Source: Natronomonas gomsonensis
Lineage (GTDB): Archaea; Halobacteriota; Halobacteria; Halobacteriales; Haloarculaceae
NCBI RefSeq assembly: GCF_013391635.1
Contig: NZ_JACAWU010000002.1
Location: 1,674,001-1,738,000 of the forward strand
Direction: 5' to 3'
DNA length: 64,000 bases
Below the pieces are notes generated by a model. That model was not told the origin of the DNA. It ran no database searches and saw only the letters and a list, made by a program, of their open reading frames with translations. Position 1 is the first letter of the stretch; the number at the start of each line of letters is the position of its first letter. The position numbers were made by a program, and so were the translations under genes. Below, in pieces: positions 31,417-46,485 of this stretch.

Positions 31417-31811
31417 CGTCCCAACTTGTACACCCCACGGGCTTCCGCACATCGGTCCCCGCCCGACTCGACGACCACGTCGGCGACACCGACAGTGTCA
31501 CCGTGTCGTCGCACCTCGGCGTGGCCTTCGAGGTCGGCCTCGCCGGCGTGGGTGAGGTAGTCGACTCTGAGGTCGACGGTCGGCGTGTACCGACCCAACT
31601 CGCCGACGAACGGCGCGGCGCCGGTGAGGTCCGCGAGCGCGGAGATGACGCCGCCGTGAATCGCCGGCACCTCGGGATTGCCGAGCAGCGACTCGTCGAA
31701 GGGCCACCGCGTGTGGGCCCCGTCGGCGGACGCCGAGACGATTTCGATGCCGTTTGCGCGGTGAAACGGGAGGTCGAGCAACTCCCGTGCGGTCTCGGTG
31801 GCGTCGCCCAT
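31413..31811 (-). CDS. PaaI-type hotdog thioesterase
   Basis: A 132-aa single hotdog domain. Signature elements: NGIEIVSASADGAHTRW, AIHGGVISALADLTG (the HGG/ALAD central helix), TVDLRVDYLTHAG and a terminal ARGVYKLG strand. Such enzymes release CoA from acyl-CoA intermediates that would otherwise trap the CoA pool, a common partner of phenylacetate or aromatic-acid pathways. It starts one base inside the livM stop (TGATG) and is coupled to the amidohydrolase. Confidence 0.85.
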   Translation of the reverse strand: MGDATETARELLDLPFHRANGIEIVSASADGAHTRWPFDESLLGNPEVPAIHGGVISALADLTGAAPFVGELGRYTPTVDLRVDYLTHAGEADLEGHAEVRRHGDTVGVADVVVESGGDRCAEARGVYKLGR

Positions 31812-32857
31812 CAGTAGGCGTAGGGCCACTTCCGCAGGTACTCCTTGAGCTGTCCGAGCGCCGCGAGGACGCCCTTCGGTTCGACGGCCAGCACGATGAT
31901 GATAACCATGCCGAAGAACACCGAGACCAGCGACGTCGCGTTCAGTCCGGTGGCCGCCGAAACCGACTGCAGGATGCTCTGTAGGATGTCCTGCAGTATC
32001 GTGACGACGCCGACGCCGAGCAGCGCACCCCACACCCGACCCAACCCGCCGAACAGCAGCATCACGTAGTGTTCGAGGGTGAGCGCGAGCGTGAAGTAAT
32101 CGGGGCTGATGAATCCGATGTAGAAGGCGTACAGTCCGCCGGAGAATCCGATCATGAACCCACCGATGGCGAACGCCAGCAGTTTGTTCTTGAAGACGTT
32201 GACCCCGAGCACCGCCGCCGCGAGGTCGTTCTCGTGGACCGCCCGGAACGTCCGGCCGATGCCAGTCCGCGAGAGGTTCAGCGACAGGATGGCGAAGAAC
32301 AGCATCGCCACGAGCGAGAGGTAGTAGATGCTGAGGTCGCCGCCCAGACTGCCGAGTGGGCCGATGAGGCCGATATCCGAGGGTATCTGCTGTTGGGCAC
32401 CGCCGTGAATCCACTCGGCGCGGCTGTTGTTGAAGAACCACTCGGCGATGAACTGCAGCGCCAGCGTCGAGATGGCGATGTAGAACCCCTTGACGCGGAA
32501 CGACGGGAGACCGAAGGCGACGGCGACGAGTGCTGCCATCAGGCCGCCGACGGCCATCGACGGCAGCAAACCGACGCCGGTCGTGAGCATCCGACTCGTC
32601 GTGTACGCACCGATAGCCATGAACGCCCCCTGTGCGAGGACGATTTCCCCGGCGTACCCCAGAATGACGTTCAATCCGAGGACCGCGATGGCGAAGATGA
32701 ACATCTGGGACAACAGCGAGACGTTCCCTCCGCCCAACCCGAGCAACGGCAGGATGAACGGGATGGGTAACGCGAGGACGAGTGCGACCCGCTGGATGCG
32801 CCAGCGGAACAGCCCCATCCGGGATTCGTAGCTCGTGAAGTACTCACCGCAGGGCAC
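31811..32857 (-). CDS. livM: Liv-type ABC transporter permease (LivM family)
   Basis: A 348-aa integral membrane permease with about nine helices; LNVILGYAGEIVLAQGAFMAIGAY is the LivM signature region, and GRTFRAVHENDLAAAVLGVNV is the cytoplasmic EAA-type coupling loop. The only possible start in frame after the upstream stop is GTG at 32855-32857, supported by a GGAGGTG ribosome-binding site 8 bases away, unusual among the mostly leaderless genes here. It lies 96 bases below livH in the same operon. Confidence 0.88.
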   Translation of the reverse strand: MPCGEYFTSYESRMGLFRWRIQRVALVLALPIPFILPLLGLGGGNVSLLSQMFIFAIAVLGLNVILGYAGEIVLAQGAFMAIGAYTTSRMLTTGVGLLPSMAVGGLMAALVAVAFGLPSFRVKGFYIAISTLALQFIAEWFFNNSRAEWIHGGAQQQIPSDIGLIGPLGSLGGDLSIYYLSLVAMLFFAILSLNLSRTGIGRTFRAVHENDLAAAVLGVNVFKNKLLAFAIGGFMIGFSGGLYAFYIGFISPDYFTLALTLEHYVMLLFGGLGRVWGALLGVGVVTILQDILQSILQSVSAATGLNATSLVSVFFGMVIIIVLAVEPKGVLAALGQLKEYLRKWPYAY

Positions 32858-32865
32858 GGCTACGG

Positions 32866-32872
32866 CACCTCC
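32866..32872 (-). promoter_or_regulatory. Shine-Dalgarno sequence that fixes the GTG start of livM
   Basis: GGAGGTG on the minus strand, 8 bases before the GTG at 32857. It is a strong match to the 16S 3' end and fits an internal operon gene. Confidence 0.6.
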
Positions 32873-32953
32873 GTAGTCGGTCGGTCACTCGCGGCCACCG
32901 TGGCCGACTGCACGCGGTCGGGTCGCCTCTCGCAGGTGTGTATCTCGAACATG

Positions 32954-33913
32954 TTAGAGCCTCTCGATGCGTTCGGTGCCGAACAGGCCGTACGGCTTCA
33001 CGACGATGACGACGAGCAGGAATATCAGCGGCAGTATCTCGCCGAAGCCGGCGCCGAAGTTCAGTTTCACGTCGATGATGGGTGCGGTAATCGCCGACCC
33101 ACCTTCCAGGTAGAACGACCCCAACTCCTGTAGCAGGCCGACGATGATGGCCCCGATGAACGCCCCGGGGATGGAGTCGAGACCGCCGAAGACGACGGCG
33201 GCGAAGATGATGATGCCGGTCGCCACGATGGAGAAGCCGGCACCCCCGGATGACATCGCCAACAGCACCCCGCCGATGGCGGTGATGCCGATGGAGAGCG
33301 CCCACGCGAGTGCAATGGTGCGCTCGATGCTCACGCCGAGTACCATCGCCGCCTGTTCGTCGCTGGCGGCCGCCCGCAGGATGCTTCCGGTGACGGTGTA
33401 CCGGAAGAACAGCATCAGCGCGACGACGACGACGAGCGCCAGCGCCACCGCCAGCGCGTACGCCGCCGAGATGGACGTTCCCAGCGGGAGGTCGATGCTG
33501 AATCCGAACGTCAGCGCCTCGGGATACGACCGGTAGTTCGGCCCGAGCAGGAATCGGATGAACCCGCTGAAGATGCCACCGAGCGCCAGCGTGACGATGA
33601 TGACCGACAGCACCGGTTCACCGATGAACTGCCGGAAGATGACCCGTTCGAGGAAGATACCGAGAAGGATGCCGAACAGAATCGTCGCTCCGACGGCCGC
33701 GACCGCCGGTAACGGCGTCGAAATCAGTGACGACGTGCCGAGGATGACGACGCCGTAGGCGCCGACCAAGGCGAGTTCGCCCTGGGCGAAGTTCAACACG
33801 CCCGTGACCTTGTAGATGAGCGCAAAGCCCATCGCGACCAGGGCATACAGCGCCCCGAGGCCGATTCCCGAGATGGTGATGTCGAGGAAGTTGATGACGC
33901 CGGCGCTAACCAT
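32954..33913 (-). CDS. livH: Liv-type ABC transporter permease (LivH family)
   Basis: A 319-aa permease with about eight membrane helices. GALYALVAMGFALIYKVTGVLNFAQGELALVGAY (quoted in part: GFALIYKVTGVLNFAQGE) is the LivH hallmark. GSILRAAASDEQAAMVLGVS is the coupling loop to the ATPases, and FGGLDSIPGAFIGAIIVG is the conserved C-terminal helix. It overlaps the acyl-CoA ligase by 8 bases. Together with LivM it forms the membrane channel. Confidence 0.93.
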   Translation of the reverse strand: MVSAGVINFLDITISGIGLGALYALVAMGFALIYKVTGVLNFAQGELALVGAYGVVILGTSSLISTPLPAVAAVGATILFGILLGIFLERVIFRQFIGEPVLSVIIVTLALGGIFSGFIRFLLGPNYRSYPEALTFGFSIDLPLGTSISAAYALAVALALVVVVALMLFFRYTVTGSILRAAASDEQAAMVLGVSIERTIALAWALSIGITAIGGVLLAMSSGGAGFSIVATGIIIFAAVVFGGLDSIPGAFIGAIIVGLLQELGSFYLEGGSAITAPIIDVKLNFGAGFGEILPLIFLLVVIVVKPYGLFGTERIERL

Positions 33914-35972
33914 CGAGCATCACCTCCTCGCCGTCGTCGGCCTCGACCGGTTCCTCGACATCGACGATCGCCATCGTGCCGTGTTCTTCCGATTCGCGTC
34001 CGTCCTGATACGTTATCGTTATGTCCATCTCGACTTCCTCCTGGTCACTGTACAGTCCCTCGACGAGTTTCCCGTAGCGGTCGACGACGACCTCCCGGCG
34101 TATCTTCCCCGTCCGGGTGAGTTCGCCGTCGTCGGCGTCGAACTCCTTGAACAGGATGAGGAACCGCTCGATGGGATGTTCGAGGTCCTCGTTGGTCTCC
34201 GCGACGACCTGTCGCATCAACTCCAACACGGGCGGCTTCTGGGTCAGGTCCTTGTAGCCGGCGTACTGGATGTCGCGTTGATCGGCCCACTCGGCGACGT
34301 TGTCGAACCGGAGGTTCAACACCGCAGCGAGCGAGTCTCGGCCGTCGCCGACGACCAGCGCCTCCTTCACGTAGGGGTTGAACTTCAGTTTCGTCTCGAC
34401 GCTGATGGGCGCGACCGCGGTGCCGTCGTTCAACTCTAGCACGTCGTCCATCCGGTCGAAGATTTTGACGTGGTCGTCGTCGGTGAGCGCCCCGAAGTCG
34501 TCGGTGTGGAGCCAACCGTCCTCCATCGCGGATTCGGTCTTCTCGGGCATGCCGTAGTACCCCGAGGTGACGACCGGGCCGCGGACGAGCAACTCCCCGC
34601 CGGGGGTGATGCCGACCTCGACGTTCGGGAACACCTCGCCGACGGTGTCGACCTGGATGTCGTCGTCGCGGTGCATCGTCACGAACCCACACACCTCGGA
34701 CTGTCCCCAAATCTGTTTCAGGGGCACACCGAGGGCGTGATAGTACGAGAAGTGGTCCTCGCCGAGGGGGCCACCGCCCGTGTAGACGTTCTTCGCGCGT
34801 TTCAGCCCGATTTTGTCGAGGATGGGCCGGTAGGCGACCCAATACGAGAGCCAGTGGGCGGCTCGCAGGGTCGCCGGCGGTTCCTCGTCGCTTTTGTCGC
34901 CGCTGACGTAGTCGGCGTACTTCCGACCGATGGACATCGCCTTCTCGTAGACGAACCGCTTCAGTCGCGTGGTGTTCTCGATTTTCGCCTTGATATCGGC
35001 GACCCACGCCTCGTAGCGGTTCGGCGACGAGAAGATGATTTCCGGGCCGATTTCACGGAGGTCCTCGGCCTCGGTTTCGGGCTGTTCGGGGAAGTTGGCG
35101 GTCCAACCGCCGACGAACGCCGCCGCAATGAGTATCATCTGCTCGCCGACCCACGCCATCGGGAGATACGAGAAGTAATCGGATTCCTTCGGCAACGGGT
35201 CGATTTCGATGGCCGCGTTCGCGAGGTTCAGGAAGTTGAAGTGGCTCAACTTCACCCGCTTCGGCATTCCAGTCGTCCCCGAAGTCGGCGGCAACATCGC
35301 CGGGGTGTCGGGGTCGATGGCTTTCACACGTTCGTGGAGGTAATCGTCGGCCACCTCACCGGTTTCGAGCCGCTCTTCGCCGACCTCCTCGACGTGTTCG
35401 TAGGAGACGATTTCGGGGTCGCCGGGCTCCGTCTTCTCGCCGTTCTCGTAGCGGAACATCCCCTTCTCGTCGCGGTAGATGATGGTCTCCAGCGACGGCA
35501 CGTCGTCGGCGACCAGGAGTAGTTTGTCGACCATCTCCTGGTCTTCGGCGTAGACGACCGATGGCTCCAGCAGTTGGAGCTGTTTGCGGATGTCGTCGGG
35601 GAGCATGTCCTCGTAGTTCGGCGCGGCCATCCCGCCCAGCGACTGGGCGGCCATCCAGGCCCACAGCTGGTGGGGCCGGTTGTAGCCGATGGTGAAGAGG
35701 ACGTCTTCCTCCTCGAAGCCGTACGTTTCGAGGCCGAGCGCGAAGTGTTCGACGCGCTCGTAGTACTCCTCCCAAGTGAATTCTTGCCAGATGCCGTATC
35801 GCTTCCACCGCAAGGCGATGTCGTCGCCGTGTTCCTCGACGTGGTCGAAGAGGATTTCCGGCAGTGCGCGGTCGGAGACGATGGGAACGTCCTCGCCGTC
35901 GGGTGCGGACAACACCCGGTCGACGGCGAGGCTGCTGTCGGTATCGCCAGTCGCTCCGTCCTCGGTCGCCAT
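33906..35972 (-). CDS. Long-chain/aryl acyl-CoA synthetase (FAA1-like), embedded in the transporter operon
   Basis: A 688-aa AMP-forming ligase with intact catalytic motifs: P-loop PPTSGTTGMPK (A3), WGQSEVCG (A5), the TDDFGALTDDDHVKIFDRMDDVLEL region (A7/A8, quoted in part) and the C-terminal TRTGKIRREVV with the catalytic Lys (A10). The long N-terminal acidic lead and FAA1-style length point to long-chain or aryl/alicyclic acids. It sits between livG (1-base gap) and livH (8-base overlap), so uptake and CoA activation are co-expressed. Similar ligase-Liv clusters are known in bacteria that degrade aromatic and alicyclic acids. Confidence 0.9.
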   Translation of the reverse strand: MATEDGATGDTDSSLAVDRVLSAPDGEDVPIVSDRALPEILFDHVEEHGDDIALRWKRYGIWQEFTWEEYYERVEHFALGLETYGFEEEDVLFTIGYNRPHQLWAWMAAQSLGGMAAPNYEDMLPDDIRKQLQLLEPSVVYAEDQEMVDKLLLVADDVPSLETIIYRDEKGMFRYENGEKTEPGDPEIVSYEHVEEVGEERLETGEVADDYLHERVKAIDPDTPAMLPPTSGTTGMPKRVKLSHFNFLNLANAAIEIDPLPKESDYFSYLPMAWVGEQMILIAAAFVGGWTANFPEQPETEAEDLREIGPEIIFSSPNRYEAWVADIKAKIENTTRLKRFVYEKAMSIGRKYADYVSGDKSDEEPPATLRAAHWLSYWVAYRPILDKIGLKRAKNVYTGGGPLGEDHFSYYHALGVPLKQIWGQSEVCGFVTMHRDDDIQVDTVGEVFPNVEVGITPGGELLVRGPVVTSGYYGMPEKTESAMEDGWLHTDDFGALTDDDHVKIFDRMDDVLELNDGTAVAPISVETKLKFNPYVKEALVVGDGRDSLAAVLNLRFDNVAEWADQRDIQYAGYKDLTQKPPVLELMRQVVAETNEDLEHPIERFLILFKEFDADDGELTRTGKIRREVVVDRYGKLVEGLYSDQEEVEMDITITYQDGRESEEHGTMAIVDVEEPVEADDGEEVMLDG

Positions 35973-35973
35973 C

Positions 35974-36831
35974 TCAGTCCACCCCCGTGTACACGCGAGC
36001 GACCTCGGGGTCCTCGGTGACCGCTTCGGGTGGCCCCCGTGCGATGACGCCGCCCTTCTGCATCACGATCATCCGGTCGGAGACGGCCGTGACGACCTCG
36101 AGGTCGTGTTCGATCATCACGAGTGCGAGGTCCTCCTGTTCGTGGAGGTCGGTCAGGAACCGAATCATGTCGTACTTCTCGTCGAAGGTGAGACCGCTCA
36201 TCGCCTCGTCCAGAAGGAGGACGTCCGGTTCCAGTGCCAGCGACCGTGCGAGGTCGACGCGGCGGCGGACGCCGAGCGGCAGCGTCGCGATTTTCGAGTG
36301 GCGGTGTTCCCACAACTCGAGGTAGTCGAGTATCTCCTCGACACGGCGCATGTTCTCGGCTTCGGTCTTCCGGCCGGCGCCGTAGAACAGCATCGCCGAC
36401 AGCAGGTTGGGTCGGTTCTTGACCGCCCGCACCGTCATCACGTTCTCGATGACGTCCTCGTCTTCGAACAGTTCCAGCCCCTGAAACGTCCGCCCCAGTC
36501 CGTTTCGGGCGCGGTAGTGTTCGGGCGTGCCGGTCACGTCCTCACCGGAGAGGTACACCGTTCCGCCCGGGTCGGGCGTGTAGAAGCCGTTGAGGATGTT
36601 CAGAAGCGTCGTCTTGCCGGCGCCGTTCGGCCCGACGATGGACACCCACTCGCCGGGTTCGATGCCGATACTCACGTCGTCGACAGCGGTGACGGTGCCG
36701 AACGTCTTGGTCACGTCGCGACAGCCGATGACCGCGTCTTCGGGGGGAATCGCCGGGCCCGCTCGGAGCGATGCTGCGGCGGCATCGGCATCGGACCCCA
36801 CGTTGGCGTCGTCGACGCTCACCGTGGCCAC
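35974..36831 (-). CDS. livG: Liv-type ABC transporter ATP-binding protein (LivG)
   Basis: A 285-aa ABC ATPase. Walker A GPNGAGKTT, Q-loop GRTFQGLELF, signature region LPLGVRRRVDLARSLA (the LivG subfamily has a divergent LSGGQ), Walker B DVLLLDEAMSGL and the switch His in MIEHDLEVV. The N-terminal 30 residues are an acidic, Ala-rich halophilic extension. It is 16 bases from livF and 1 base from the ligase. Confidence 0.95.
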   Translation of the reverse strand: MATVSVDDANVGSDADAAAASLRAGPAIPPEDAVIGCRDVTKTFGTVTAVDDVSIGIEPGEWVSIVGPNGAGKTTLLNILNGFYTPDPGGTVYLSGEDVTGTPEHYRARNGLGRTFQGLELFEDEDVIENVMTVRAVKNRPNLLSAMLFYGAGRKTEAENMRRVEEILDYLELWEHRHSKIATLPLGVRRRVDLARSLALEPDVLLLDEAMSGLTFDEKYDMIRFLTDLHEQEDLALVMIEHDLEVVTAVSDRMIVMQKGGVIARGPPEAVTEDPEVARVYTGVD

Positions 36832-36847
36832 CTCCCAATCCGAGACA

Positions 36848-37699
36848 TCAGGTCCACCTCTTGCGGATTTTGTAGTGACGGATGTCGGTGTATCGAGAGC
36901 CGTCGCCGGAGGTGCCGAGGTAGAACTCCTTGATTTCCTCGCGGTTCAACAACACGTCGGCCGGGTCGTTCAACTCGATTTGGCCGTTCTCCATCACGTA
37001 GCCGTAGTCGGCGATGTCGAGCGTTCGCTGGGCGTTCTGGTCGGCGATAATCATCGTGATGTCCTCCTGTCGGTTGATTTCGACGAGCGTCTCGAAGATG
37101 TCCTCGACGAGTTTCGGCGCCAGGCCGAGCGAGGGTTCGTCCAGCAACAACAGTCGCGGCCGGTGGATGAGTGCCCGCGCGATGACGAGCATCTGTTGTT
37201 GACCGCCGCTGGCGTAGCCGGCTTTCAAGTCGAGGATTTCCTCCAGTTGCGGGAAGTACTCGAAGGCGATTTCGTAGTCGTCTTCCTCGAAGCGGAAACG
37301 TCGGCCACCGCGGTACAGCCCACAGCGGAGGTTCTCCTCGACGGTGAGGTCCTCGAACACGCGCCGACCCTCGAGGATGTGGGTGACGCCGCGGTCGACC
37401 ATCTCGTTGGCCCCGTTGTTGGTCACGTCCTCGCCGTCGTAGAACACGCGACCGCGGGAGACCTCGCCGCGCTCGCTGCGGCCGATGCCGCTTATCATCT
37501 TGAGGATGGTCGACTTGCCGGCGCCGTTGGGACCCAACAGCGCGACGATGTCACCCTCATCGACGGACATCGAGACACCCTGTACCGCCAGGAAGTGGCG
37601 GTCGTAGACGATTTCGACGTTGTCGAGTTCGACGACGGGTGTCTCCTCGTCCTCGGCGCTGGCGTCCGCCGAAACCGCCTCGCGTTCGCTCGCGGTCAT
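36848..37699 (-). CDS. livF: Liv-type ABC transporter ATP-binding protein (LivF)
   Basis: A 283-aa ABC ATPase. Walker A GPNGAGKST, Q-loop ILEGRRVFEDLTVEENLR, signature ASGGQQQMLVIARALI, Walker B LLLLDEPSLGLAP. The usual switch His is replaced: IIADQNAQRTLDIAD has Gln (common in LivF). It starts one base inside the stop of the binding-protein gene (TGATG). Confidence 0.95.
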   Translation of the reverse strand: MTASEREAVSADASAEDEETPVVELDNVEIVYDRHFLAVQGVSMSVDEGDIVALLGPNGAGKSTILKMISGIGRSERGEVSRGRVFYDGEDVTNNGANEMVDRGVTHILEGRRVFEDLTVEENLRCGLYRGGRRFRFEEDDYEIAFEYFPQLEEILDLKAGYASGGQQQMLVIARALIHRPRLLLLDEPSLGLAPKLVEDIFETLVEINRQEDITMIIADQNAQRTLDIADYGYVMENGQIELNDPADVLLNREEIKEFYLGTSGDGSRYTDIRHYKIRKRWT

Positions 37700-38961
37700 C
37701 AGAGTCCAATCCAGTCGTCACGCCGGGGCAGTTCGACCGTCGTGTCGAATTCGAAGGAACCGTCGGAAACCTCGAACAGACGGCCAGTCATCGTCGGCCG
37801 GCGGTCCTCCTCCGTGTAGGTGAACGGCTCGGCGAGGTCCCACATGGTGTCGTCCTCGATGTCGAACATCGACTGACGGACGTCCGACCCGCTCGTGGGG
37901 TCGCGGTCGGCGTCGATGGCGTTCTGTAGGCCCTTCAACACGAGCAGCCCGTGGATGCAGCCGCGGACGTAGTTGAGGTTCGCGACCGACGGGTCGTCCA
38001 TGTCCCGCCCCTCGCGTTCGAAGTTCTCCTCGATCATGGACGTGCCGTCGCCGCCCGAATCGAGTGCCCCCTGGAAGGTCCGGAAGGCACTGACGTAGCG
38101 GACGCCCTCGAAGTTCTCCGGGGACTCCTGGATGCGTGGTTCGTCGACGGTGTAGGTCAGCCCACAGACGGTCACGTCGGGGTAGATGTCCTCCCTGTCG
38201 GAGAGCAACACCTGCATCGGCGCGGCCGTGTTCTGGTGAATGAGGTAGTCCACGTCGGCGTCCCGCGCCTGCCGCAGTTGCGTCGTCGCGGAGTTGGCGT
38301 CCAGCGGGAGGTTGATGTCCTCGGCGACGTTCAGCCCCAGTTCTTCGGCGTACTGCTTGCCACCCTCGACGGGCGCCTGCCCGAAGGGGTTGTTCGAGAA
38401 GATGAAGGCGATGGTCGCCTCCGCGTCGTTGTCGGCAATCCACTTGAGGTGGGCCCGCGCCTGACTCGTGTAGTCGAGGTTGCCGAAGAAGTTGTAGGGG
38501 GCTTCCTCGGTCAGGAGGTTCGCCGAGTACGATGCCGAGACGTAGACGATTTCGTCTTCGGCGACCGTTCCCGACAGCGCCTCGGTGTCGGCAGTCCCCC
38601 AGCCGATAATCATCGGTGGCTCCGACCCCGAGGTGTACTCGTCGTAGTACTGCTGGGCCTGCGGCACCTCGTAGGCGTAGTCGTTGTTCGGGTGGTTGAT
38701 TTCCTGTGGCAGGAGGTCGTTCTCGTTGAAATACGCGATGGCGTCCCGCGACCCGACCGCGGTCGGCCGTCCAACGTCGGAGGTTCCGCCGCTTTCGTCG
38801 TACAGACCTGGAACAGTAATGCTGTCCCCACCGTTCCCGTTCCCGTTACCGTTACCGTTACCGTTACCGCCGAGACAACCGGCCAGGGCGCCGACCGCCA
38901 TCGTTCCAGCCGTCGCCTTCATGAACGTCCGCCGGTTGTGTGCGTTGTAATCGTGTCCCAT
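37699..38961 (-). CDS. livK: Tat-exported lipoprotein, Liv-type ABC substrate-binding protein
   Basis: A 420-aa periplasmic-binding-type protein anchored outside the membrane. It has a Tat motif NRRTFMKA, a hydrophobic helix, then lipobox ALAGC (Cys about residue 28), followed by a low-complexity (Gly-Asn)n linker coded by six CCGTT[C/A] hexamers. The mature domain is the Leu/Ile/Val-binding fold (SITVPGLYDESGG..., AYFNENDLLPQEINHP). A wide ligand range is known, including aromatic acids. The start at 38961 precedes the Tat signal; upstream in-frame residues are not signal-like. First gene of the eight-gene leftward operon. Confidence 0.9.
   Translation of the reverse strand: MGHDYNAHNRRTFMKATAGTMAVGALAGCLGGNGNGNGNGNGNGGDSITVPGLYDESGGTSDVGRPTAVGSRDAIAYFNENDLLPQEINHPNNDYAYEVPQAQQYYDEYTSGSEPPMIIGWGTADTEALSGTVAEDEIVYVSASYSANLLTEEAPYNFFGNLDYTSQARAHLKWIADNDAEATIAFIFSNNPFGQAPVEGGKQYAEELGLNVAEDINLPLDANSATTQLRQARDADVDYLIHQNTAAPMQVLLSDREDIYPDVTVCGLTYTVDEPRIQESPENFEGVRYVSAFRTFQGALDSGGDGTSMIEENFEREGRDMDDPSVANLNYVRGCIHGLLVLKGLQNAIDADRDPTSGSDVRQSMFDIEDDTMWDLAEPFTYTEEDRRPTMTGRLFEVSDGSFEFDTTVELPRRDDWIGL
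38831..38866 (-). repeat. Hexanucleotide tandem repeat in livK
   Basis: Six consecutive CCGTT[C/A] units on the plus strand (two CCGTTC, four CCGTTA) encode the Gly-Asn linker behind the lipid-anchored Cys. Units are multiples of three, so copy-number change would alter linker length without a frameshift. Confidence 0.6.
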
Positions 38962-38993
38962 GGCGTTACGAAACAACCGTTCGTAGGAATGCG

Positions 38994-39016
38994 GTTTATT
39001 CTTTACCCCTATAAAC
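38994..39016 (-). promoter_or_regulatory. Promoter and inverted repeat of the Liv operon
   Basis: GTTTAT (38994-38999), 11 bases, ATAAAC (39011-39016), a perfect inverted repeat whose minus-strand arm GTTTATAGG is also the likely TATA box, about 50 bases before the livK ATG. A bound regulator would block the promoter. Confidence 0.4.
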
Positions 39017-39092
39017 AACCTAATATGCCCGTATAAAAGTACAAAAGTGACTGGAGCCAAGATTGATGGCGCTCCTCGAAGAAACCGGGAAC

Positions 39093-39521
39093 ATGACTGA
39101 CGACTGTGTCTTCTGTCGCATCATCGACGGCGAGATCCCGGCGCGAACCGTCTACGAGGACGACGACGTGCTGGCGTTTCTCGACGCCAACCCGCTCGCC
39201 CGTGGTCACACGCTCGTCATCCCCAAGAACCACCACGAACGCGTCTCCGATTTGCCGTCGGCCGACAGGGACGCCGTCTTCGAGACGCTCGGCCGACTCA
39301 CATCGGCCGTCGAGGCGGCCGTCGACGCCGACGGCGTCACCGTAGGGATGAACGACGGCGACGCCGCCGGCCAGGAGGTCCCCCACGTCCACGGCCATCT
39401 CGTCCCGCGTTTCGACGGCGACGGCGGCGGCGCCGTCCACTCCATCGTCCGGACGCTACCGGAACTCTCCGACGGGGAGTTAGACGCCATCGCCGCCGAC
39501 ATCGGCGACGCCGCGGAGTGA
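39093..39521 (+). CDS. HIT-family nucleotide hydrolase/transferase
   Basis: A 142-aa HIT protein (histidine triad), hydrolysing nucleoside phosphoramidates or AMP-linked substrates. The triad is HVHGH in VPHVHGHLVPRFDGD (the usual HxHxHxx form). CVFC near the N-terminus and GHTLVIPKNHH are typical of the Hint branch. TATAAAA (39032-39038) would start transcription near 39062, which also fits a start at ATG 39066; 39093 (MTDDCVFC) matches family starts better. The gene is divergent from livK and convergent with the small gene at 39526. Confidence 0.9.
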   Translation: MTDDCVFCRIIDGEIPARTVYEDDDVLAFLDANPLARGHTLVIPKNHHERVSDLPSADRDAVFETLGRLTSAVEAAVDADGVTVGMNDGDAAGQEVPHVHGHLVPRFDGDGGGAVHSIVRTLPELSDGELDAIAADIGDAAE

Positions 39522-39525
39522 CCGG

Positions 39526-39831
39526 TCAAAGCGGGGCGGAAGTCCCTGTCACCGCCGCAAAGCGCTCTGGGTCGAATCGGATGCCACCGACCGTTTCGAC
39601 CCACGGATACGCTTTCAGCCGCTGGGCTCGGCCATAGGATAACACGACGACCGCAAACCCCGAACGGTGGTGCATCACGAGTCGGTCGGGGGAACCGATG
39701 GCACCGAGCAATCCGACCATGAACTGGTCGTGGTCGACGCTCTCGGGGCGTTTCACGAGGAACGTTCCGACGACGTCCGGCGCCGGCCCCTCGACGGTGA
39801 TGTCGGCGCCGAACCGCTCTGCCATATCCAT
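39526..39831 (-). CDS. Uncharacterised small protein (101 aa) at the 3' end of the paralogue operon
   Basis: A 101-aa soluble protein starting MDMAERFGADITVEGP. The pattern FVVxxL-then-SGFAVVVLSYGRAQRLKAYPWVETVGGIRFDPERF resembles, loosely, the alpha-beta sandwich of subtilisin propeptides (I9: a Gly-Phe-Ala strand, a helix with a Leu, then Pro-x-Val-x-x-Val). I cannot confirm this. Met codons at 39831 and 39825 are both possible; 39831 leaves 2 bases after the upstream stop, so it is probably translated from the same transcript. Confidence 0.5.
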   Translation of the reverse strand: MDMAERFGADITVEGPAPDVVGTFLVKRPESVDHDQFMVGLLGAIGSPDRLVMHHRSGFAVVVLSYGRAQRLKAYPWVETVGGIRFDPERFAAVTGTSAPL

Positions 39832-39833
39832 CG

Positions 39834-40811
39834 TCACGTCAGCATCGACCGCGCCTGCTCGACCCACGACTCGGCCCGGCTACTCGATGTGTTGGCGATT
39901 TCGGCGACCGTTTTGGGGTCCATCTCCGCCAGCGCCGCGAGGCCGGCGACGCCCGCCTCGCGCAGGCGCTCTGCGTACGTCGGCCCGATGCCGTCGATGG
40001 CCTCGAGGGACTCCGACGGCTGTTCCTCGGTCGGCTCCATCGGTTCGAAGTCGGCATCCGAGTCGGCGTCCTCGGCTTGGCGTTCGTCGGCGACCGTCAA
40101 ATCGACCGGAGCCTCCGGTGGTGCGAGAGCGTACGGTTCGGGGAACTGGTCGACGACGGCGTCCGGCGACGACGTGGCGTCTTCCACCGTCGTGACCTCC
40201 CCGACGGTGAGTCCGGCCCGGTTCAGTCGCCCCCTCGCCGTCTCCAAGTCGGTTCCCAGGAGGTCCGGCACCTCGCTGTAGTCGGCTTCCGGGCTGTCCG
40301 GCTCGGAGTCACCCGCACGGACCCGGAAGGAGATTTCGCTCAGGTTCTCGCTTGCGAACCGCTCGTCGAGCGACGGCAAGTGCAGCCGAATCCCGTCGTT
40401 GTCCTGTACCACGTTGGCTTTGAGCGAAAACGCCACGTCGTCTATTGTGTAGTTGGCCGCATCGAGTTCCGTCCGCACGTCTCCGACGGCCGACCCGAGG
40501 TTCGAAAACACCGTCTTCGGTTCGAGTTTCGGACGCTCGACTTCGAGTTGCCGGATGCGGTCTCGGAGTTCCTCGCGCTCCGATTCCAGACGCGAGAGTT
40601 GACTTTCGAGGGCGTTTCGCTCGCCACGAATCTCCAGAACGTCCGTCTGGAGGTTCTGGATGATGGTCTCGCGTTCGCTGACGGCGCGTTCGATGGCCGC
40701 ACGCTCGACCGTCTCGAGTTTCTTCGTTTCGACCTGCGGAATCTCTTCGAGTTGAAACGACCGGGCACTCACGTATCGGCGGTCGTCGGTCGGAAACTTC
40801 TCGCCGCTCAT
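39834..40811 (-). CDS. Coiled-coil protein with PASTA-like and helix-hairpin-helix domains
   Basis: A 325-aa protein. Domains in order: coiled coil (about residues 28-95, ERETIIQNLQTDVLEIRGER and following heptads), a beta-rich region (about 108-170, with LHLPSLDE...LSEISFRVRA, the same pattern as the end of the paralogues upstream), a PASTA-like repeat (about 183-245: VPDLLGTDLETARGRLNRAGL then VDQFPEPYALAPPEAPVDLTVA), an acidic linker, and a C-terminal helix-hairpin-helix (LEAIDGIGPTYAERLREAGV, then AEIANTSSSRAESWVEQA). PASTA with HhH is an unusual pair. No signal peptide. Overlaps the next gene by 4 bases. Confidence 0.65.
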   Translation of the reverse strand: MSGEKFPTDDRRYVSARSFQLEEIPQVETKKLETVERAAIERAVSERETIIQNLQTDVLEIRGERNALESQLSRLESEREELRDRIRQLEVERPKLEPKTVFSNLGSAVGDVRTELDAANYTIDDVAFSLKANVVQDNDGIRLHLPSLDERFASENLSEISFRVRAGDSEPDSPEADYSEVPDLLGTDLETARGRLNRAGLTVGEVTTVEDATSSPDAVVDQFPEPYALAPPEAPVDLTVADERQAEDADSDADFEPMEPTEEQPSESLEAIDGIGPTYAERLREAGVAGLAALAEMDPKTVAEIANTSSSRAESWVEQARSMLT

Positions 40812-41200
40812 GACTGTCGACGCTCCGGGGGTACTGGGACCATACGCACGGTCACCTCACTTGTCATTTCGGCGTCGATGTCGAACTGACTCCGGGAGCG
40901 GGGGTTGACTGGCGTCGCCCCGAGTTTCGGGCGGTAGCCACGGACCGTCCCGTTTTCGTCGCGAATCTCCTCGCCCTCGATTGAGACGGCGATTTGGAGG
41001 TCGGCTTCGACCTCCGAAAAGCGGAGCCACGAGGCGTCCATCTGGACGTCGAGGTCGCCGCTCTCGGCGGCACGTTCGAGTTCCCGCTGGACCCGCATCG
41101 TCCGACGGTCCAACTCCTCTTGACCCTCCGCGACGGAGACGGCCAGCGACCGGATGAACTCCTTCAGCGGTCTGGAGGCCCACTGTTCGGTCGACATCAC
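40808..41200 (-). CDS. Uncharacterised paralogue C of a DUF2589-like family
   Basis: A 130-aa (129 from the second Met) soluble protein. N-terminal helix PLKEFIRSLAVSVAEGQEELD parallels the opening helix of the two larger paralogues upstream, and WLRFSEVEADLQIAVSIEG parallels their YQFSEAT.EV.VDI strand. The central acidic/proline part is shorter, and it lacks the EVDVVP element, so it is the most diverged copy. It overlaps the next upstream gene by 4 bases (41197-41200) and the PASTA-HhH gene by 4, so all are coupled. Confidence 0.6.
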   Translation of the reverse strand: MMSTEQWASRPLKEFIRSLAVSVAEGQEELDRRTMRVQRELERAAESGDLDVQMDASWLRFSEVEADLQIAVSIEGEEIRDENGTVRGYRPKLGATPVNPRSRSQFDIDAEMTSEVTVRMVPVPPERRQS

Positions 41201-41736
41201 TCACCCTCCGGAGTGTCACGCGTCTCGGTGGGCGACAACTCGAGGGGGAGTGGGACCGGCTGGAGTCGCGCGTTGATTCGTGCGTTCGCCTCGACCTCGT
41301 GGTCGTATTTGCGCTGTTCGGTCACTTCGTAGGTTCCGGCCCGAAGCCCGAGACGTCGCCCTTCGGATTCGCTTTCGCGTTCGCCTTCCTCGCTGAATCG
41401 GATGTCGACGCCGACCTCGAGGGTGGCCTCCGAGAACTGATAGCGGGTCGGCGTAAAGCCGAGTTCGAGCAGCGACCGCGATTCGGTGGCGGCCGATTCG
41501 GTCTCGACGCCGCCGTGTTCGTCGATTCGGCGGGTGAGTTGCGGGACGACGTCGACTTCGGTCTCCGCGAGGGTTTCGAGGAGTTCGGCCGTCGAGAGGT
41601 CGAGTTTCGTCTGTGCGCTGGCGATTCCCTCCGCGAGTAGGTATATCAGGTCGTCGAACGGAACGTCAAGCTCTTCGCGAACCGGCTGTGTGTGGGCGGT
41701 ACCTCGATGTCGTAGGTCCGACGGTCGAATTGGCAT
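41197..41736 (-). CDS. Uncharacterised paralogue B of a DUF2589-like family
   Basis: A 179-aa soluble protein. Recognisable order: LDVPFDDLIYLLAEGIASAQ helix, LDLSTAELLETLAETEVDVVP, SLLELGFTPTRYQFSEATLEVGVDI, an Arg/Glu-rich middle, then VEANARINARLQPVPLPLEL. The same order runs through paralogue A. The N-terminal helix/AQ, then S-LL, then YQFSEA strand arrangement is reminiscent of bacterial DUF2589 proteins, which occur as tandem paralogues of unknown function. No signal peptide or membrane segment. Confidence 0.6.
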   Translation of the reverse strand: MPIRPSDLRHRGTAHTQPVREELDVPFDDLIYLLAEGIASAQTKLDLSTAELLETLAETEVDVVPQLTRRIDEHGGVETESAATESRSLLELGFTPTRYQFSEATLEVGVDIRFSEEGERESESEGRRLGLRAGTYEVTEQRKYDHEVEANARINARLQPVPLPLELSPTETRDTPEGE

Positions 41737-41784
41737 GGTGGCAGTTTCGGGTGGTAAGCGTGGGAAATGCGGGATTCGGGTGGT

Positions 41785-42315
41785 TCAGGCTTCGGTCTCG
41801 CCGTCGCCCGACGGTCGGTTGTCGACCGTTTTGACCTCCGGGAATAGGTACGGCGGTTCCGGAACCGGCTGCATCTTCGTCACCAGCCTGCTCGTGCCGT
41901 GGACCTCCTTGCCGAACTTCCGGTTGTGACTCACGTCGGTGTCGATGCGGGCGCTCCAGAGGCCGAACCCGACCTTGCCGCTGGCGCTTACGTCTACCTG
42001 CGTCTCCGTCGACGTGGTCGTCTTGATGTCCATCTCGACCTCGATAGTCGCCTCTGAAAACTGATAGAACGTCGGGAACATCCCGGCCTGTAGCAGGGAA
42101 ACGTCGATAGCGTCCGCGGAGTCGTAATCGACGCTCCCGTCGGCGTTGATAGTGCGAGTTATCGCGGGCACGACCTCGATTTCCGTTTCGGCGAGGGTCT
42201 TTGCGACCTCCACCGAGTTCATGTCGAGTTGGTGCTGTGCGTCGGCGATACCCTGGCCGAGGCTAGCAACCATCTCGGGAAGCGGCACGTCTAGTAGTTC
42301 TTGTCCAACTGACAT
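41785..42315 (-). CDS. Uncharacterised paralogue A of a DUF2589-like family, first gene of the operon
   Basis: A 176-aa soluble protein starting MSVGQELLDVPLPEMV. It shares with paralogue B: LDVP, QGIADAQHQLD, LAETEIEVVPAITR, VSLLQAGMFPTFYQFSEAT, EVEMDI, and a Pro-rich end (MQPVPEPPYLFPEV). The Gly/Ser-rich ends and lack of hydrophobic segments suggest a cytoplasmic or secreted soluble assembly protein; there is no signal peptide. The start is fixed by a GGAGGT site 7 bases upstream. A 48-base gap separates it from paralogue B. Confidence 0.6.
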   Translation of the reverse strand: MSVGQELLDVPLPEMVASLGQGIADAQHQLDMNSVEVAKTLAETEIEVVPAITRTINADGSVDYDSADAIDVSLLQAGMFPTFYQFSEATIEVEMDIKTTTSTETQVDVSASGKVGFGLWSARIDTDVSHNRKFGKEVHGTSRLVTKMQPVPEPPYLFPEVKTVDNRPSGDGETEA

Positions 42316-42400
42316 TGTTTGTACCTCCAAATTTTACGTACTCATAACTATAATAAATAGTTAACTAGCCCAAATTAACACATAATTGATTATTGATTGA
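42316..42400 (-). promoter_or_regulatory. AT-rich palindromic promoter of the paralogue operon
   Basis: In an otherwise GC-rich window this leader is strikingly AT-rich. TAACTAT-AATAA-ATAGTTA (42345-42363) is a perfect inverted repeat whose centre TTATTATAG can act as the TATA box; transcription would start near 42328, 13 bases before the ATG, next to the GGAGGT ribosome-binding site (42323-42328). A symmetric operator over the TATA box suggests repression. The rest of the 42316-42474 gap has ATTGATT repeats and nothing coding. Confidence 0.55.
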
Positions 42401-42474
42401 TGTATTTTCAAACAGGCGTTTGAGAGTAATGAGACATCAACTGGCCGGCGGACGACACTCGGGGCGTCCGCCGA

Positions 42475-43953
42475 CTACAGTTTCTCGATGACCATCTCCT
42501 CGGGGCGGCGAATCCGGAAGACGTCCGCACGGGCCTCCAGCGCCGCCGCGTCGTCGCGTTTCGCCGCCGACTCGGCGTGAATCGTCAACAGCGGGTCCCC
42601 CAGGTCGACCGCCTCGCCGGTAGTGACGTGCAACACCACGCCCGCACCCTTGTCTTTCGGCGCTCCGGCTCGCCGGCCGAGTTCGGCCAACACGCCGTTG
42701 TCGGCGTTCGTCACCACGCCGTCCCGTTCGGCGACGATCGTCTCGGTCAGCGAGCCGATTTCGATGCCCTCGCGAGTCACGTCCCGGTCGCCGCCCTGCG
42801 CCTCGATGATGTCGCGGAACGTCTCGAGGGCGCGACCCGATTCGAGTAACATCTCGGCGTCGGTGTCGACGCCACAGCGCTCCAGCAGTATCGACGCCAA
42901 CTCGACGCTCTTCGAGCGAAGGTCGGAGGGGCCGTCACCTTCGAGAACCGCGAGTACCTCGCGGGCCTCCAGCGCCGGTCCGATGCCTCGACCGATGGGC
43001 CCGTCGCCCCGCGTGATGGCACACTCGATGCGAACGTCGAGGTGCTCGCCGACCCGTTTGAACCCACGGGAGAGTCGACGGGCCTCCGCGAGACTCACCA
43101 CCTTCGCGCTCTCGCCGTAGGGGATGTCGACGACGACGTGGGTCGAGCCGGCGCTGCGTTTCTTCGAGAGCACCGACGCGATGACCTGCCCCTCCGGGTC
43201 CAGCGACAGCGGCGTCTCGACTTCGATGATGCGGTCGTCGACCGGCGAGAGGTCGACCGCACCGCCCCACGCGACACAGCCGTTGACTTTCCGAACGACG
43301 GCCTCGATTTCCGACTGGCTCAACTCGACGTTACAGAACACCTCCATCGTGTCGGCCGTCCCCGCTGGCGAGGTGATCGCCCGCGAGGACGTCTTCGGAA
43401 TCTTCACGCCGGCGGCCGCGACGATGGCGACGATGATGGGCGTCGTCCGATTCCCGGGGACGCCGCCGATACAGTGTTTGTCCGCGATGACCGCGTCGTC
43501 CCACCTGATTCGACTGCCCACGTCCGCCATGCACTCGGTCAGTGAGGTCGTCTCCTCGAGTGAGAGGCCGTTGGCCTGGAGGCCACAGACGTAGGCCGTC
43601 AACTCGATGTCGGTCAGGCGGTCGTGGTAGATGTCCTGAACGATGCTCCGGATTTCGGTGTGGTCGAGTTCGATGTCTTCGAGTTTTCGCCTGACGTACC
43701 GCGTCGACTGCGGGGTCGGTGACAGGCGAACGTCGACCGACCCCTCCAGATGCATCAGCGGTCGCGTCACGCCGATGGTTCCGGGCTCTATCAGGTCGGT
43801 GGTCACCTTCACGACGCCGACCGTGGTTCCCGTGTCATCGGATAACTCGACACGCTCCATCGCGTGGACGCCCAGCGCCTCGGCGTCCTCGCGGTGGATG
43901 ACGACCGTCGGCGTCGCCGTATCGAGGTCGAACGGCTCCGTCTTCAGTTCCAT
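42475..43953 (-). CDS. deoA: AMP phosphorylase
   Basis: A 492-aa member of the thymidine phosphorylase/AMP phosphorylase family, cleaving AMP with phosphate to ribose-1,5-bisphosphate and adenine in the archaeal pentose-bisphosphate route. Hallmarks: KHCIGGVPGNRTTPIIV (substrate/phosphate loop), ITSPAGTADTMEVF, GGAVDLSPVDDR and the GAGVVLHVTTGEAVDLGD tail. The N-terminal extension (ELKTEPFDLDTATPTVVIHRED) distinguishes AMP phosphorylase from pyrimidine enzymes. It shares the AT-rich region upstream of the paralogue operon only as a neighbour (same strand, 159-base gap). Confidence 0.93.
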   Translation of the reverse strand: MELKTEPFDLDTATPTVVIHREDAEALGVHAMERVELSDDTGTTVGVVKVTTDLIEPGTIGVTRPLMHLEGSVDVRLSPTPQSTRYVRRKLEDIELDHTEIRSIVQDIYHDRLTDIELTAYVCGLQANGLSLEETTSLTECMADVGSRIRWDDAVIADKHCIGGVPGNRTTPIIVAIVAAAGVKIPKTSSRAITSPAGTADTMEVFCNVELSQSEIEAVVRKVNGCVAWGGAVDLSPVDDRIIEVETPLSLDPEGQVIASVLSKKRSAGSTHVVVDIPYGESAKVVSLAEARRLSRGFKRVGEHLDVRIECAITRGDGPIGRGIGPALEAREVLAVLEGDGPSDLRSKSVELASILLERCGVDTDAEMLLESGRALETFRDIIEAQGGDRDVTREGIEIGSLTETIVAERDGVVTNADNGVLAELGRRAGAPKDKGAGVVLHVTTGEAVDLGDPLLTIHAESAAKRDDAAALEARADVFRIRRPEEMVIEKL

Positions 43954-44014
43954 GTCTCGGTATCGGCACCGGGGGCAAAGAAGGTCAGCCTCGACGGAGC
44001 GCTGTCGCCGACGC

Positions 44015-44902
44015 TCAGTCGCTGTCTTCGGATTCCGGCGGTCGAACCGTCAACACGGGCACCGGCGACGTTCGGACCAGCGCCTCGGCGACGCTTCCGA
44101 GGAGATATCGGTCGAAACCGGTCCGGCCGTGGGTGCCGACTACGACGAGGTCGACCTCCCGTTCCTCGAGAAACGAGAGGACTGCCTCGTGGACCGACGA
44201 CCCGTACTCGACGGCGCCGTGTACCTGCTCGACGCCCGCCTCTTCGGCGAATGCTGTCGCCTCCTCGACGATGTCCTCGGCGCTTTCCTCCAACATCGCG
44301 GTCTGGATGTCGCTTCGGACGTCGATACCGAGGGACTGGTAGGTGATAGCCGACAGGACGTACAGGGCGGCCTCGGCCTCGGTCGCCACGTCGGCCGCAA
44401 CCGAGAGGGCCTCGGTTGCCCCCTTGCTTCCATCGGTGGGTACCAACACGTCCCGATACGGGTAGTGGGGTTCGGCCGCGGCGTCGGGGCGAATCGTGAG
44501 CACGGGAACCTCGGCCCGCCTGACGACGCGCTCGGTGGTGCTTCCGAGCAGCAACCGCTGGAGCCCCCTGCGACCGTGCGTCGGCATGACGATCAGGTCC
44601 ATATCGTACTCGTCGGCGTATTCGACGATGGTTCGGTACGGTTCGCCCTGAATGACGGTCGACACCGTCTCGACATCGCGATCGCGGGCGCGTTCGGCCA
44701 CCTCCTCGAGGAGGCCCTCCCCTTCTCGTTCGAGCACGTCGACGACATCTCCCTGAATCCGCGTGAGGCTATCCCGCGTCGTGTCCGCTACGTTGAGAAG
44801 ATAGACGGTCGACCCGTGTGTCGACGCGATGTCGAGAACGTGGTCGAGGGCGCGGCCCTCCCCGTCGCTTCCATCGGTCGGAAAGAGGATTCGGTCGTAC
44901 AT
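44015..44902 (-). CDS. Universal stress protein with two USP domains
   Basis: A 295-aa protein with two tandem USP domains, residues about 1-140 and 150-290. Each starts with DRILFPTDGSDGEG / RDVLVPTDGSKGATEAL and has the ATP-binding G-2x-G-9x-G-[ST] pattern: MPTHGRRGLQRLLLGSTTER, and GTHGRTGFDRYLLGSVAEAL. Both are ATP-binding type. The start at 44902 (MYDRIL) is preferred to an earlier Met in a Pro/Arg-rich stretch. Likely a stress or starvation response protein. Confidence 0.93.
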   Translation of the reverse strand: MYDRILFPTDGSDGEGRALDHVLDIASTHGSTVYLLNVADTTRDSLTRIQGDVVDVLEREGEGLLEEVAERARDRDVETVSTVIQGEPYRTIVEYADEYDMDLIVMPTHGRRGLQRLLLGSTTERVVRRAEVPVLTIRPDAAAEPHYPYRDVLVPTDGSKGATEALSVAADVATEAEAALYVLSAITYQSLGIDVRSDIQTAMLEESAEDIVEEATAFAEEAGVEQVHGAVEYGSSVHEAVLSFLEEREVDLVVVGTHGRTGFDRYLLGSVAEALVRTSPVPVLTVRPPESEDSD

Positions 44903-45264
44903 ACGTCGGCTATCGTGGCCGGGAACCAAAACGAAGGGGGGTCGTCCAGGCAACCCTCAATGGACGGCCTGTCCAGAATACTTGCTCCGTTGAGACCATC
45001 TGTAGTCGATAAAATAGCGTGCTGAGTATAGAGGATGTACTTACCGGCCGCCAACCACTCGGTTCCACACTACCCAGATGAAAGAACCGGTCGTACGAAC
45101 TTCGGATGGACAGGTCCGGTTTGTTTTCATAGTTGTTCTACTGGGTAGGTCGCCATCCCCCGTGCGAGCCAGCGACTCGGAAGGCCTGCGCCTTCCATTG
45201 TTCGCCCGGACGCGGATTCGTTTTCCGCAAAAAGACTGAAAGGGAATCGCTCGAGAGTTCACCC
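44903..45264. other. Intergenic region with a perfect hairpin
   Basis: 362 bases between the divergent USP gene (leftward) and the orphan gene (rightward). It holds a perfect GGAAGGC-CTGC-GCCTTCC hairpin (45179-45196) plus CGAG...CTCG just before it, loosely like the mini-hairpins at 19.9-20.1 kb, and a CAAAAAGA box about 30 bases before the GTG start at 45265. I see no further gene; the region is moderately GC-rich. Confidence 0.45.
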
Positions 45265-46485
45265 GTGGGCGAAACGCACAACGTGTGGACGCCGGTGTAC
45301 ATCGGCGAGCGGCCGGACGAGTTGATTCGGCGCACCATCCGCATCCTCATCGACAACGGGTTTGAGACGACTAGCGACGGCGACACCGACCTCGTGGAGT
45401 GGTACAAGTTCGAGGGGGACGACCGGTACGACATCCGCAAGGACGCCTCCCTCGAGGAGGTAATCGAGGAGTCCCGCACCGTCGAGGACGTCGACAAGGT
45501 CGTGATTCGGGTCTGGATGCCCGACAGCGCATCGTGCCTGCGCGTCGAATTCAACGACGAGCAGTCCGTCGCCTATCCCGCGTTGTCCATGTTCGGCCCG
45601 GACGAGTGGGAACTGGGTGACAAAGGGGATGTTGAGTACGATATCGCCCGCGAGCGTTCCGACCGACTCGCCGACGCGCTCGTCGCACTCGCCGAAGAAT
45701 TCGACCCGTGGTTCGCCTTCTCCCGCGTGCGTCACCCTTACGACGGGGACGACGTGTTCCCCAGTGACGAACCGCCGAACAGCGGAGTCGAAACGGTTCC
45801 GTGGATGGCGGTGTTCGGTGAGGAGTGGTTCGATCGCTTCGGTGGTCGGAAGCGAGTACTCGACGCGCCATCGTGGCGGGTCGACGCCCTCGACTCCGGC
45901 GGCGTGTTCCTGCGGTCGCACGACGTACCTGCACGGATTCGTTCCGACGCCACCGGCGGCGGCGAAATCTCTACCTACGACTACCTGTTCGACCGCGAAT
46001 CCATCGACAGCCTGCAGGCGGAAATCAAGCGTCAGAAGAGCACGTTCGTCGATCCGTTCCGCGATCTCGACGACGGCGAGTTGGCCAGCGACGTGGTGAT
46101 GTGTGAGTCCCACGCCCCCTTCGAGTTCGAGGAGATGGACTACGCCTCGTTCTTCGACGAGTACACCATTGAGGATATGTGCCACGTCTTCTGCGTGCGC
46201 CGCGGCGGCGACAAGTTGTGGGAGGCGAACAATGACGAGTTCATCCGTCGGCTCGTCGACGAGAACGGCCACCCTATCGGGGAACTCCCCGAGGGCGTAC
46301 CGCCCCATCGGGAGATGATCTCGCACAAGGTCGTGACCGAACACCACGGTGCTGCGCCACTCGATATGCTTCGGATGGACGCTCCCGACGAGCCCAGCTT
46401 GACCGCACGATTGCACGGGCTCAGTTGCGCGCGCGAGGGCGAGAGCATCTGGCAGGACGACGACAAACCGGTCACGAGAACGTGA
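45265..46485 (+). CDS. Orphan hypothetical protein (406 aa)
   Basis: An acidic soluble protein with no signal peptide or membrane helix and no family I recognise. It starts at GTG (VGETHNVWTPVYIGERPDEL), which fits a CAAAAAG box about 30 bases upstream. Residues 1-60 look like a small alpha-beta module (WTPVYIGE...IRILIDNGFE). The rest has Trp-rich, strand-rich stretches (EWFDRFGG, DAPSWRVDALDSGG) and a His/Cys-rich segment (VVTEHHGA, LHGLSCARE). It stands alone between two stress-protein genes on opposite strands. Confidence 0.5.
   Translation: MGETHNVWTPVYIGERPDELIRRTIRILIDNGFETTSDGDTDLVEWYKFEGDDRYDIRKDASLEEVIEESRTVEDVDKVVIRVWMPDSASCLRVEFNDEQSVAYPALSMFGPDEWELGDKGDVEYDIARERSDRLADALVALAEEFDPWFAFSRVRHPYDGDDVFPSDEPPNSGVETVPWMAVFGEEWFDRFGGRKRVLDAPSWRVDALDSGGVFLRSHDVPARIRSDATGGGEISTYDYLFDRESIDSLQAEIKRQKSTFVDPFRDLDDGELASDVVMCESHAPFEFEEMDYASFFDEYTIEDMCHVFCVRRGGDKLWEANNDEFIRRLVDENGHPIGELPEGVPPHREMISHKVVTEHHGAAPLDMLRMDAPDEPSLTARLHGLSCAREGESIWQDDDKPVTRT

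Follow-up and report, generated by a model that had tools for sequence, protein, structure and literature searches.

Background

Two described sequence families come closest to the A-type proteins treated here. DUF2589 (PF11655) is a family without an assigned function; in connection with it, AF0414-AF0417 are reported as up-regulated on lactate (PMC3949148). Trypco2 (PF19631) takes its name from co-occurrence with trypsins (PMC7159879). We compare these and other described systems with a cassette of five genes, A-B-C-D-E, in the haloarchaeon Natronomonas gomsonensis (assembly GCF_013391635.1). The window, i.e. the whole stretch of 64,000 nucleotides analysed, corresponds to positions 1,674,001 to 1,738,000 of contig NZ_JACAWU010000002.1, and all coordinates without a locus name refer to it. 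A and B are remote relatives of DUF2589, a kind known so far as a sequence family.

An original prediction, made from the sequence alone, had read this locus as an operon of four genes: three paralogous soluble proteins with a layout recalling DUF2589, and a fourth carrying a coiled coil, a PASTA-like domain and a helix-hairpin-helix (HhH). It proposed an undescribed assembly or a nucleic-acid-linked surface system. The gene count has to be corrected, as E is a fifth gene conserved together with the other four. Judged from sequence comparison, one module is common to A, B and C, with D sharing it less clearly, and the five genes form a constant unit that is gained or lost whole and has no recurrent neighbours. 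Our favoured reading, with a probability of roughly 0.45, is that the cassette encodes a single hetero-oligomeric assembly of helix/beta-hairpin subunits, intracellular at least initially. Pfam, NCBIfam, PADLOC and PHROGs gave no role for the cassette: matches of D in NCBIfam are confined to the domain level and lie under the cut-off, and PHROGs returned nothing convincing. No role for its proteins was found in the open-access full text searched. Neither these libraries nor these papers placed A, B or C in a family with an assigned role, the finding that would have refuted the original prediction. The cassette is nameless in the libraries searched; its job, once established, would also be a first handle on DUF2589-type proteins.

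Layout of the cassette

The unit consists of five consecutive open frames, all on the minus strand. Gene A (41785..42315, 176 residues) encodes the best-conserved protein of the cassette and gene B (41197..41736, 179 residues) its paralog. Gene C (40808..41200) codes for a short A/B paralog of 130 residues if read from a GTG, or of 129 residues from the next ATG at 41197. The 325 residues of D (39834..40811) comprise a coiled coil, a short core related to C, a PASTA domain (40089..40274, residues 180-241) and an HHH_5 helix-hairpin-helix (39849..40013, residues 267-321). Both domains had been named in the original prediction and both exceed their Pfam cut-offs (36.9 bits against 23.2 and 43 bits against 27, respectively). 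Gene E (39526..39831, 101 residues) starts 2 base pairs (bp) after D and has a predicted beta-alpha-beta-beta-alpha-beta fold. An AT-rich leader 5' of A (42316..42440, minus strand) contains a GGAGG motif resembling a ribosome site and is presumed, judged by eye, to be the promoter region of the operon.

Overlaps of 4 bases, reported earlier for the genes in general, occur between C and D and, with the GTG start, between B and C, where use of the next ATG reduces the overlap to 1 base; a gap of 48 bp separates A from B. The genes are co-directional and close-packed and travel as a unit, in agreement with the earlier proposal that they act together.

Kinship of the five proteins

A and B share 42-43% identity (43% over residues 5-165 of A), and BLAST detects no similarity between C and either of them. 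A profile of A and B (57 rows) matches archaeal C with a probability of 99.4 and a score of 133; the best of 60 column shuffles, a lenient control, scored 17. Four further profile comparisons, all made without a shuffle control, gave probabilities of 90.5 (A and B against bacterial C), 97.0 (archaeal against bacterial C), 97.1 (archaeal against bacterial D, to which the coiled coil contributes) and 87.1 with E 4e-6 (bacterial C against the bacterial D core). By identity and profile, A, B and C are paralogs, as had been claimed; the ETEVDVVP and YQFSEAT blocks attributed to all three are missing from C, which is a short version. The core of D appears to join the family more weakly, through C and mainly via the bacterial members. 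E was tried as a further paralog of A and rejected (score 10, equalled by 18 of 60 shuffles).

Comparison with DUF2589 and Trypco2

None of the window proteins A, B and C matches DUF2589 at E up to 10 (Pfam cut-off 23 bits), and their own genome contains no DUF2589 match. Aligned with hhalign, the 57-row profile of A and B matches seven DUF2589 proteins with a probability of 95.7 (E 8.5e-9, 153 columns, score 61.5, against 15.0 for the highest of 60 column shuffles), and C alone with 19.9 over 26 columns only. Five of the 57 A/B relatives match DUF2589 weakly (best 2.7e-4), and the B protein of a Pseudanabaena bin reaches 21.5 bits, just below the cut-off. On this profile evidence A and B belong with DUF2589 in one superfamily, as distant relatives that are not formal members of the family.

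Over the 153 columns a helix, an 'LL..P' strand and a second strand follow one another in both groups alike. DUF2589 genes also occur as tandem paralogs, like A, B and C, in some loci with a small alpha/beta protein; pairs are present in three of the four genomes with matches (G085, G136, G215). The DUF2589-like layout suggested earlier therefore holds as remote profile similarity and tandem paralogy, not as membership, the window proteins missing the family cut-off. The DUF2589 loci inspected differ further by lacking C, D and E.

DUF2589 pairs in three loci, L069 (G085:C1:1569044-1572147), L119 and L120, are accompanied by a protein of about 90-109 residues, alike by eye. The genome of Parerythrobacter lutipelagi holds a DUF2589 pair about 11 kilobases (kb) downstream of a five-gene cassette (G085:C1:1570686-1583178), with groES-groEL between them; we take the proximity as coincidence.

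Trypco2 matches residues 92-131 of A at 17.9 bits, below its cut-off of 24.2, and two of the 57 A/B relatives at E 0.1 or better. Its helix plus strands presumably resemble C. Among the genes checked, no trypsin or VMAP gene lies beside the cassette.

Distribution and gene order

Searched as the original prediction had proposed, archaeal and bacterial genomes yielded 52 related loci (scan of genome_contigs), 32 of them with all five genes. The orders, read by script, are EABCD (19), ABCDE (8), CDEAB (3) and AEBCD (2), the first three being circular permutations of one another. The script took the best segment per gene letter on the plus strand; family models came from stop-to-stop segments whose ends were left untrimmed, and some overlapping-frame matches were set aside by eye. 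Among the 20 loci outside the five-gene count, L014, L027 and L043 stop at contig ends, and L042, L044 and L045 contain short C- or D-like frames by eye. B of L030 runs off its contig. Halobaculum litoreum (L049:5939-8544) has A and C each split over two frames, by decay or sequence error; it was counted as CDEAB and excluded from the distance test below.

Eleven of the five-gene loci are haloarchaeal and 21 bacterial, the latter spanning nine phyla by record title. Seven of these phyla are unsure because 16 of the 21 bacterial loci are metagenome bins; the five isolates (Pelovirga, Sandarakinorhabdus, Parerythrobacter, Rhodoferax and Sphaerotilus) represent two phyla. The cassette of Sphaerotilus sulfidivorans is a plasmid-borne E-A-B-C-D operon, and its A-type protein is 65% identical to window A. 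In Natronomonas sp. CBA1123 (L009) this identity is 99%. Eighteen further archaeal regions contain A-C-D-E without B (10), A-C-D (4), E-A-C-D (1), a fragmentary A with C-D-E (1) or all five genes (2); A-C-D-E is the set kept by methanogens. In two methanogen loci (L113:8550-12524, minus strand; L112:2081-6661, plus strand), a second, very long D-like protein adjoins A-C-D-E.

Presence is patchy. Counting the own genome, the cassette was found at genus level in 3 of 20 genomes, at family level in 2 of 57 and at phylum level in 27 of 344; in a Pseudomonadota sample of 398, only the centre genome has it. A tree computed from 45 A proteins separates the haloarchaeal rows, together with L101, from the bacterial rows at a weakly supported split (81/55). 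On this tree Pseudomonadota require six changes, at least three of them forced by well-supported branches, and several long branches make placements unsure.

Gain or loss as one piece

The genome G058, of the same genus and without A, matches the window at 30001-39519 (94.0%) and 42485-44940 (93.1%). Only 54 bp lie between these two matches, against 2,965 bp in the window (39520..42484), which bounds the whole cassette. Given this clean empty site, the cassette has been gained or lost whole. CBA1123 carries it at the same place as the window, and in G009 it sits elsewhere, since of the 16 kb from that genome only the part corresponding to window 39544-42316 aligned to window 30001-54000.

No neighbour recurs. 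Among 103 flanking proteins of 22 loci, the commonest Pfam families (ABC_tran and AAA_21) occur in four, so we regard the cassette as self-contained. A crude rule based on base composition served to call the flanking genes, and 103 of 115 were used, 12 being omitted for size or redundancy. A peptidase or mobile-element gene was considered as a constant neighbour and none was seen among the commonest 25 of 136 families in these 103 proteins.

Pairwise protein distances of A to E correlate over 31 loci, with Spearman coefficients of 0.56-0.81 and none of 999 permutations as high for any of the ten pairs, as for genes with one history. Median identity over the same loci is 0.65 for A, 0.41 for B, 0.28 for E, 0.24 for C and 0.19 for D.

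Patchy presence, the clean empty site, the different site in G009 and the plasmid copy of Sphaerotilus would also be expected of a conflict or defence cassette, acting in phage defence or growth arrest and moved between genomes as a unit. This is decidedly improbable in our estimation: the PADLOC 2023 models match none of window A, C and E and only weakly B (13.6 bits) and the coiled coil or PASTA of D, the cassette contains no catalytic or nuclease domain, and no defence family recurs among the flanking proteins. Moreover, several methanogen loci share the same neighbours (L3 and nucleotidyltransferase-like genes, by eye), which looks like stable inheritance.

A viral or phage origin was considered and rejected, no sequence relative of A being present in the viral_contigs and phages collections. 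DUF2589 queries match, at 31%, a single 'Bacteriophage sp.' record of 4,044 bases that has no annotation.

Predicted folds of A and E

The model of A, from the 57-row alignment, combines a helix (residues 12-43) with two strands (83-105 and 130-151) that form a long hairpin. Its mean predicted local distance difference test value (pLDDT) is 71.7 and its predicted template modelling score (pTM) 0.51. Hydropathy alternates with a period of two in strand 1 (mean z 2.33) and the tip (2.47) of the A/B hairpin over the 57 rows. Among predicted viral proteins, one structural match to the A model was found (A0A516MP19, 178 residues; E 9.9e-5, TM 0.47, 19% identity).

The paired strands of 22-23 residues predicted in A, together with the beta-type alternation in strand 1 and tip, raise the question of a membrane-acting assembly, in which the hairpins of A and B would insert as a beta-barrel under the control of C, D and E. 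Many beta-hairpin pore proteins are among the PDB matches listed for A (best E 0.17). They share the long hairpin, itself a generic feature, and little else with A, and no match among them reaches significance. In the model the tip has pLDDT below 50, strand 2 lacks the alternation, and by hydropathy neither a hydrophobic leader nor a membrane stretch was detected; we consider insertion of this kind very unlikely.

E (52 rows) is modelled with a mean pLDDT of 86.5 and a pTM of 0.72 as beta-alpha-beta-beta-alpha-beta plus a final helix, a predicted ferredoxin-like fold. Its 1148 PDB matches include none at E 0.001 (best 0.028); by their descriptions, the 50 listed contain 13 subtilisin-type peptidases, mostly prodomain chains, nine MORF chains and also ACT domains. 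A profile search of the PDB with E gave 18 matches, nine of them subtilisin propeptides (E 0.4-1.1). We read these matches as suggesting a fold class, not a function.

A peptidase-linked system can be envisaged, in which a peptidase gene at another locus would supply the enzyme, A to D would be its adaptors or substrates, and E, in the manner of a propeptide, would inhibit a subtilisin-type peptidase or chaperone its folding. It could draw on the prodomains among the nearest solved folds of E, on the propeptide share of the profile matches, on related DUF2589 genes whose neighbour is of Astacin type in L069 and of DUF922 type in L121, and on the sub-threshold match of A to Trypco2, a family named for trypsin co-occurrence (PMC7159879). 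The MORF and ACT matches of E are equally good, however, and such likeness to subtilisin propeptides (I9) as E may have lies in the modelled fold: E has no significant structural match, no Pfam match, no leader and no recurrent subtilase neighbour. The 39 E sequences compared with Pfam hit no inhibitor family at E up to 1, and among the commonest 25 of 136 families in the 103 flanking proteins no peptidase family recurs, a single M81 annotation being present. Such a link to a peptidase is unlikely.

The arm of D and cellular location

PASTA exceeds its cut-off in all 12 archaeal D-type proteins scanned (window, L055, L057, L012, L113 twice, L114, L105, L104, L116, L101 and L040), in one to four copies, or 12 in the second, 1324-residue D paralog of L113. 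HHH_5 does so in three of the 12 (window, L012 and L104). Neither PASTA nor HhH is found in 23 bacterial-type D proteins among Pfam matches at E 0.001 or better; one of these, in L036, carries InlB-type repeats. Archaeal D shares the PASTA domain with the described PASTA proteins and differs in having no kinase and no membrane anchor, and in placing PASTA after a coiled coil and core.

At five loci (L048, L052, L056, L058 and L060) the clusters are larger: several A-like paralogs are accompanied by an OmpA-bearing member, by PASTA proteins and by a basic, disordered protein. In L052 and L058, the two loci tested for it, this member is an A-like protein with an OmpA domain, and L058 has PASTA in two further proteins.

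By hydropathy only, no membrane-like stretch occurs in A, B, C or D (33-38 proteins per family), five of 33 E proteins lie above the threshold of 1.6, and none of the window proteins opens with a hydrophobic leader. The surface or nucleic-acid-linked system of the original prediction, in which the PASTA and HhH arm of D would act outside the cell or on DNA, is hardly probable on these data, and the least so of the readings weighed here. In its favour are the PASTA domain of every archaeal D scanned, the HhH of some D, the OmpA domain of two A-like proteins and the InlB-type repeats of one D. Its nucleic-acid part drew on an HhH that exceeds its cut-off in three of the 12 archaeal D-type proteins and is not among the listed matches of the 23 bacterial-type ones, and so is optional; its surface part has those PASTA, OmpA and InlB-type domains as its case, set against proteins without leader or membrane segment, and PASTA too is missing from the bacterial-type D.

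A putative multi-subunit assembly

We infer one assembly, the order of its subunits and the roles of D and E from four traits: a single operon encodes paralogous subunits, A is very conserved, D combines a coiled coil with an arm that can be swapped, and the genes are inherited inseparably. The folds of A and E are model predictions. Four of the five proteins carry versions of a common module, in which an amphipathic beta-hairpin follows a helix, and would take non-equivalent places. A would be the main subunit, with B and C as sister subunits. The core of D would fit into the lattice formed by these, and its coiled coil, with a variable C-terminal arm of PASTA, in some cases HhH and in rare ones InlB-type repeats, would bridge to a partner; E may serve as assembly chaperone, cap or regulator. 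The conservation gradient, highest in A and lowest in D, fits a lattice-forming A and a divergent linker D. We also count for an assembly the beta-type alternation in the A/B hairpin region and the multiplication of module proteins in L052 and L058, with OmpA and PASTA added. The identity of A, about 65% (median, 31 loci) across archaea and bacteria, and the appearance and disappearance of the cassette as a whole indicate that it is strongly selected for a definite task.

Several results weigh against an assembly of this form. The kinship of D, for which the original prediction had noted a similar strand pattern, is borne out mainly by the bacterial C and D profiles. Between archaeal C and archaeal D the match is weak (probability 4.9, score 25, against 16 for the highest of 60 shuffles); with bacterial D, archaeal C reaches a probability of 2.0 (without a shuffle control); and the A and B profile gave no sign of direct homology to archaeal D (probability 0.2, with 4 of 60 shuffles equally high). 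The A model is of moderate quality, residues 101-134 falling below pLDDT 50; its 163 Foldseek matches in the PDB at E up to 10 include none at 0.001; and strand 2 has a mean z of 0.23. Methanogens without B indicate that B is not essential, and in bacteria many copies of B or C have diverged strongly. The distance correlations partly mirror shared ancestry and are no proof of contact. Finally, PASTA, OmpA and InlB-type domains are mostly extracytoplasmic.

A wider claim, in our view rather doubtful, is that the cassette is a portable, undescribed cross-domain system, a new prokaryotic supramolecular structure built from up to four paralogous helix/beta-hairpin subunits (more in some Bacteroidota-like clusters), with D as interchangeable arm, E as assembly factor and the DUF2589 pairs as small relatives of the machine.

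Neighbouring genes in the window

The cassette lies between an AMP phosphorylase gene upstream (TIGR03327, NCBIfam) and a convergent HIT gene downstream; a Usp gene is also among the neighbours in the window. The segment 44947-46644 has no aligned counterpart in L009 and G058 and may be a variable stretch too. A 450-residue frame at 45133-46485 (plus strand) shows a sub-threshold, TsiV-like Pfam match (E 0.058).

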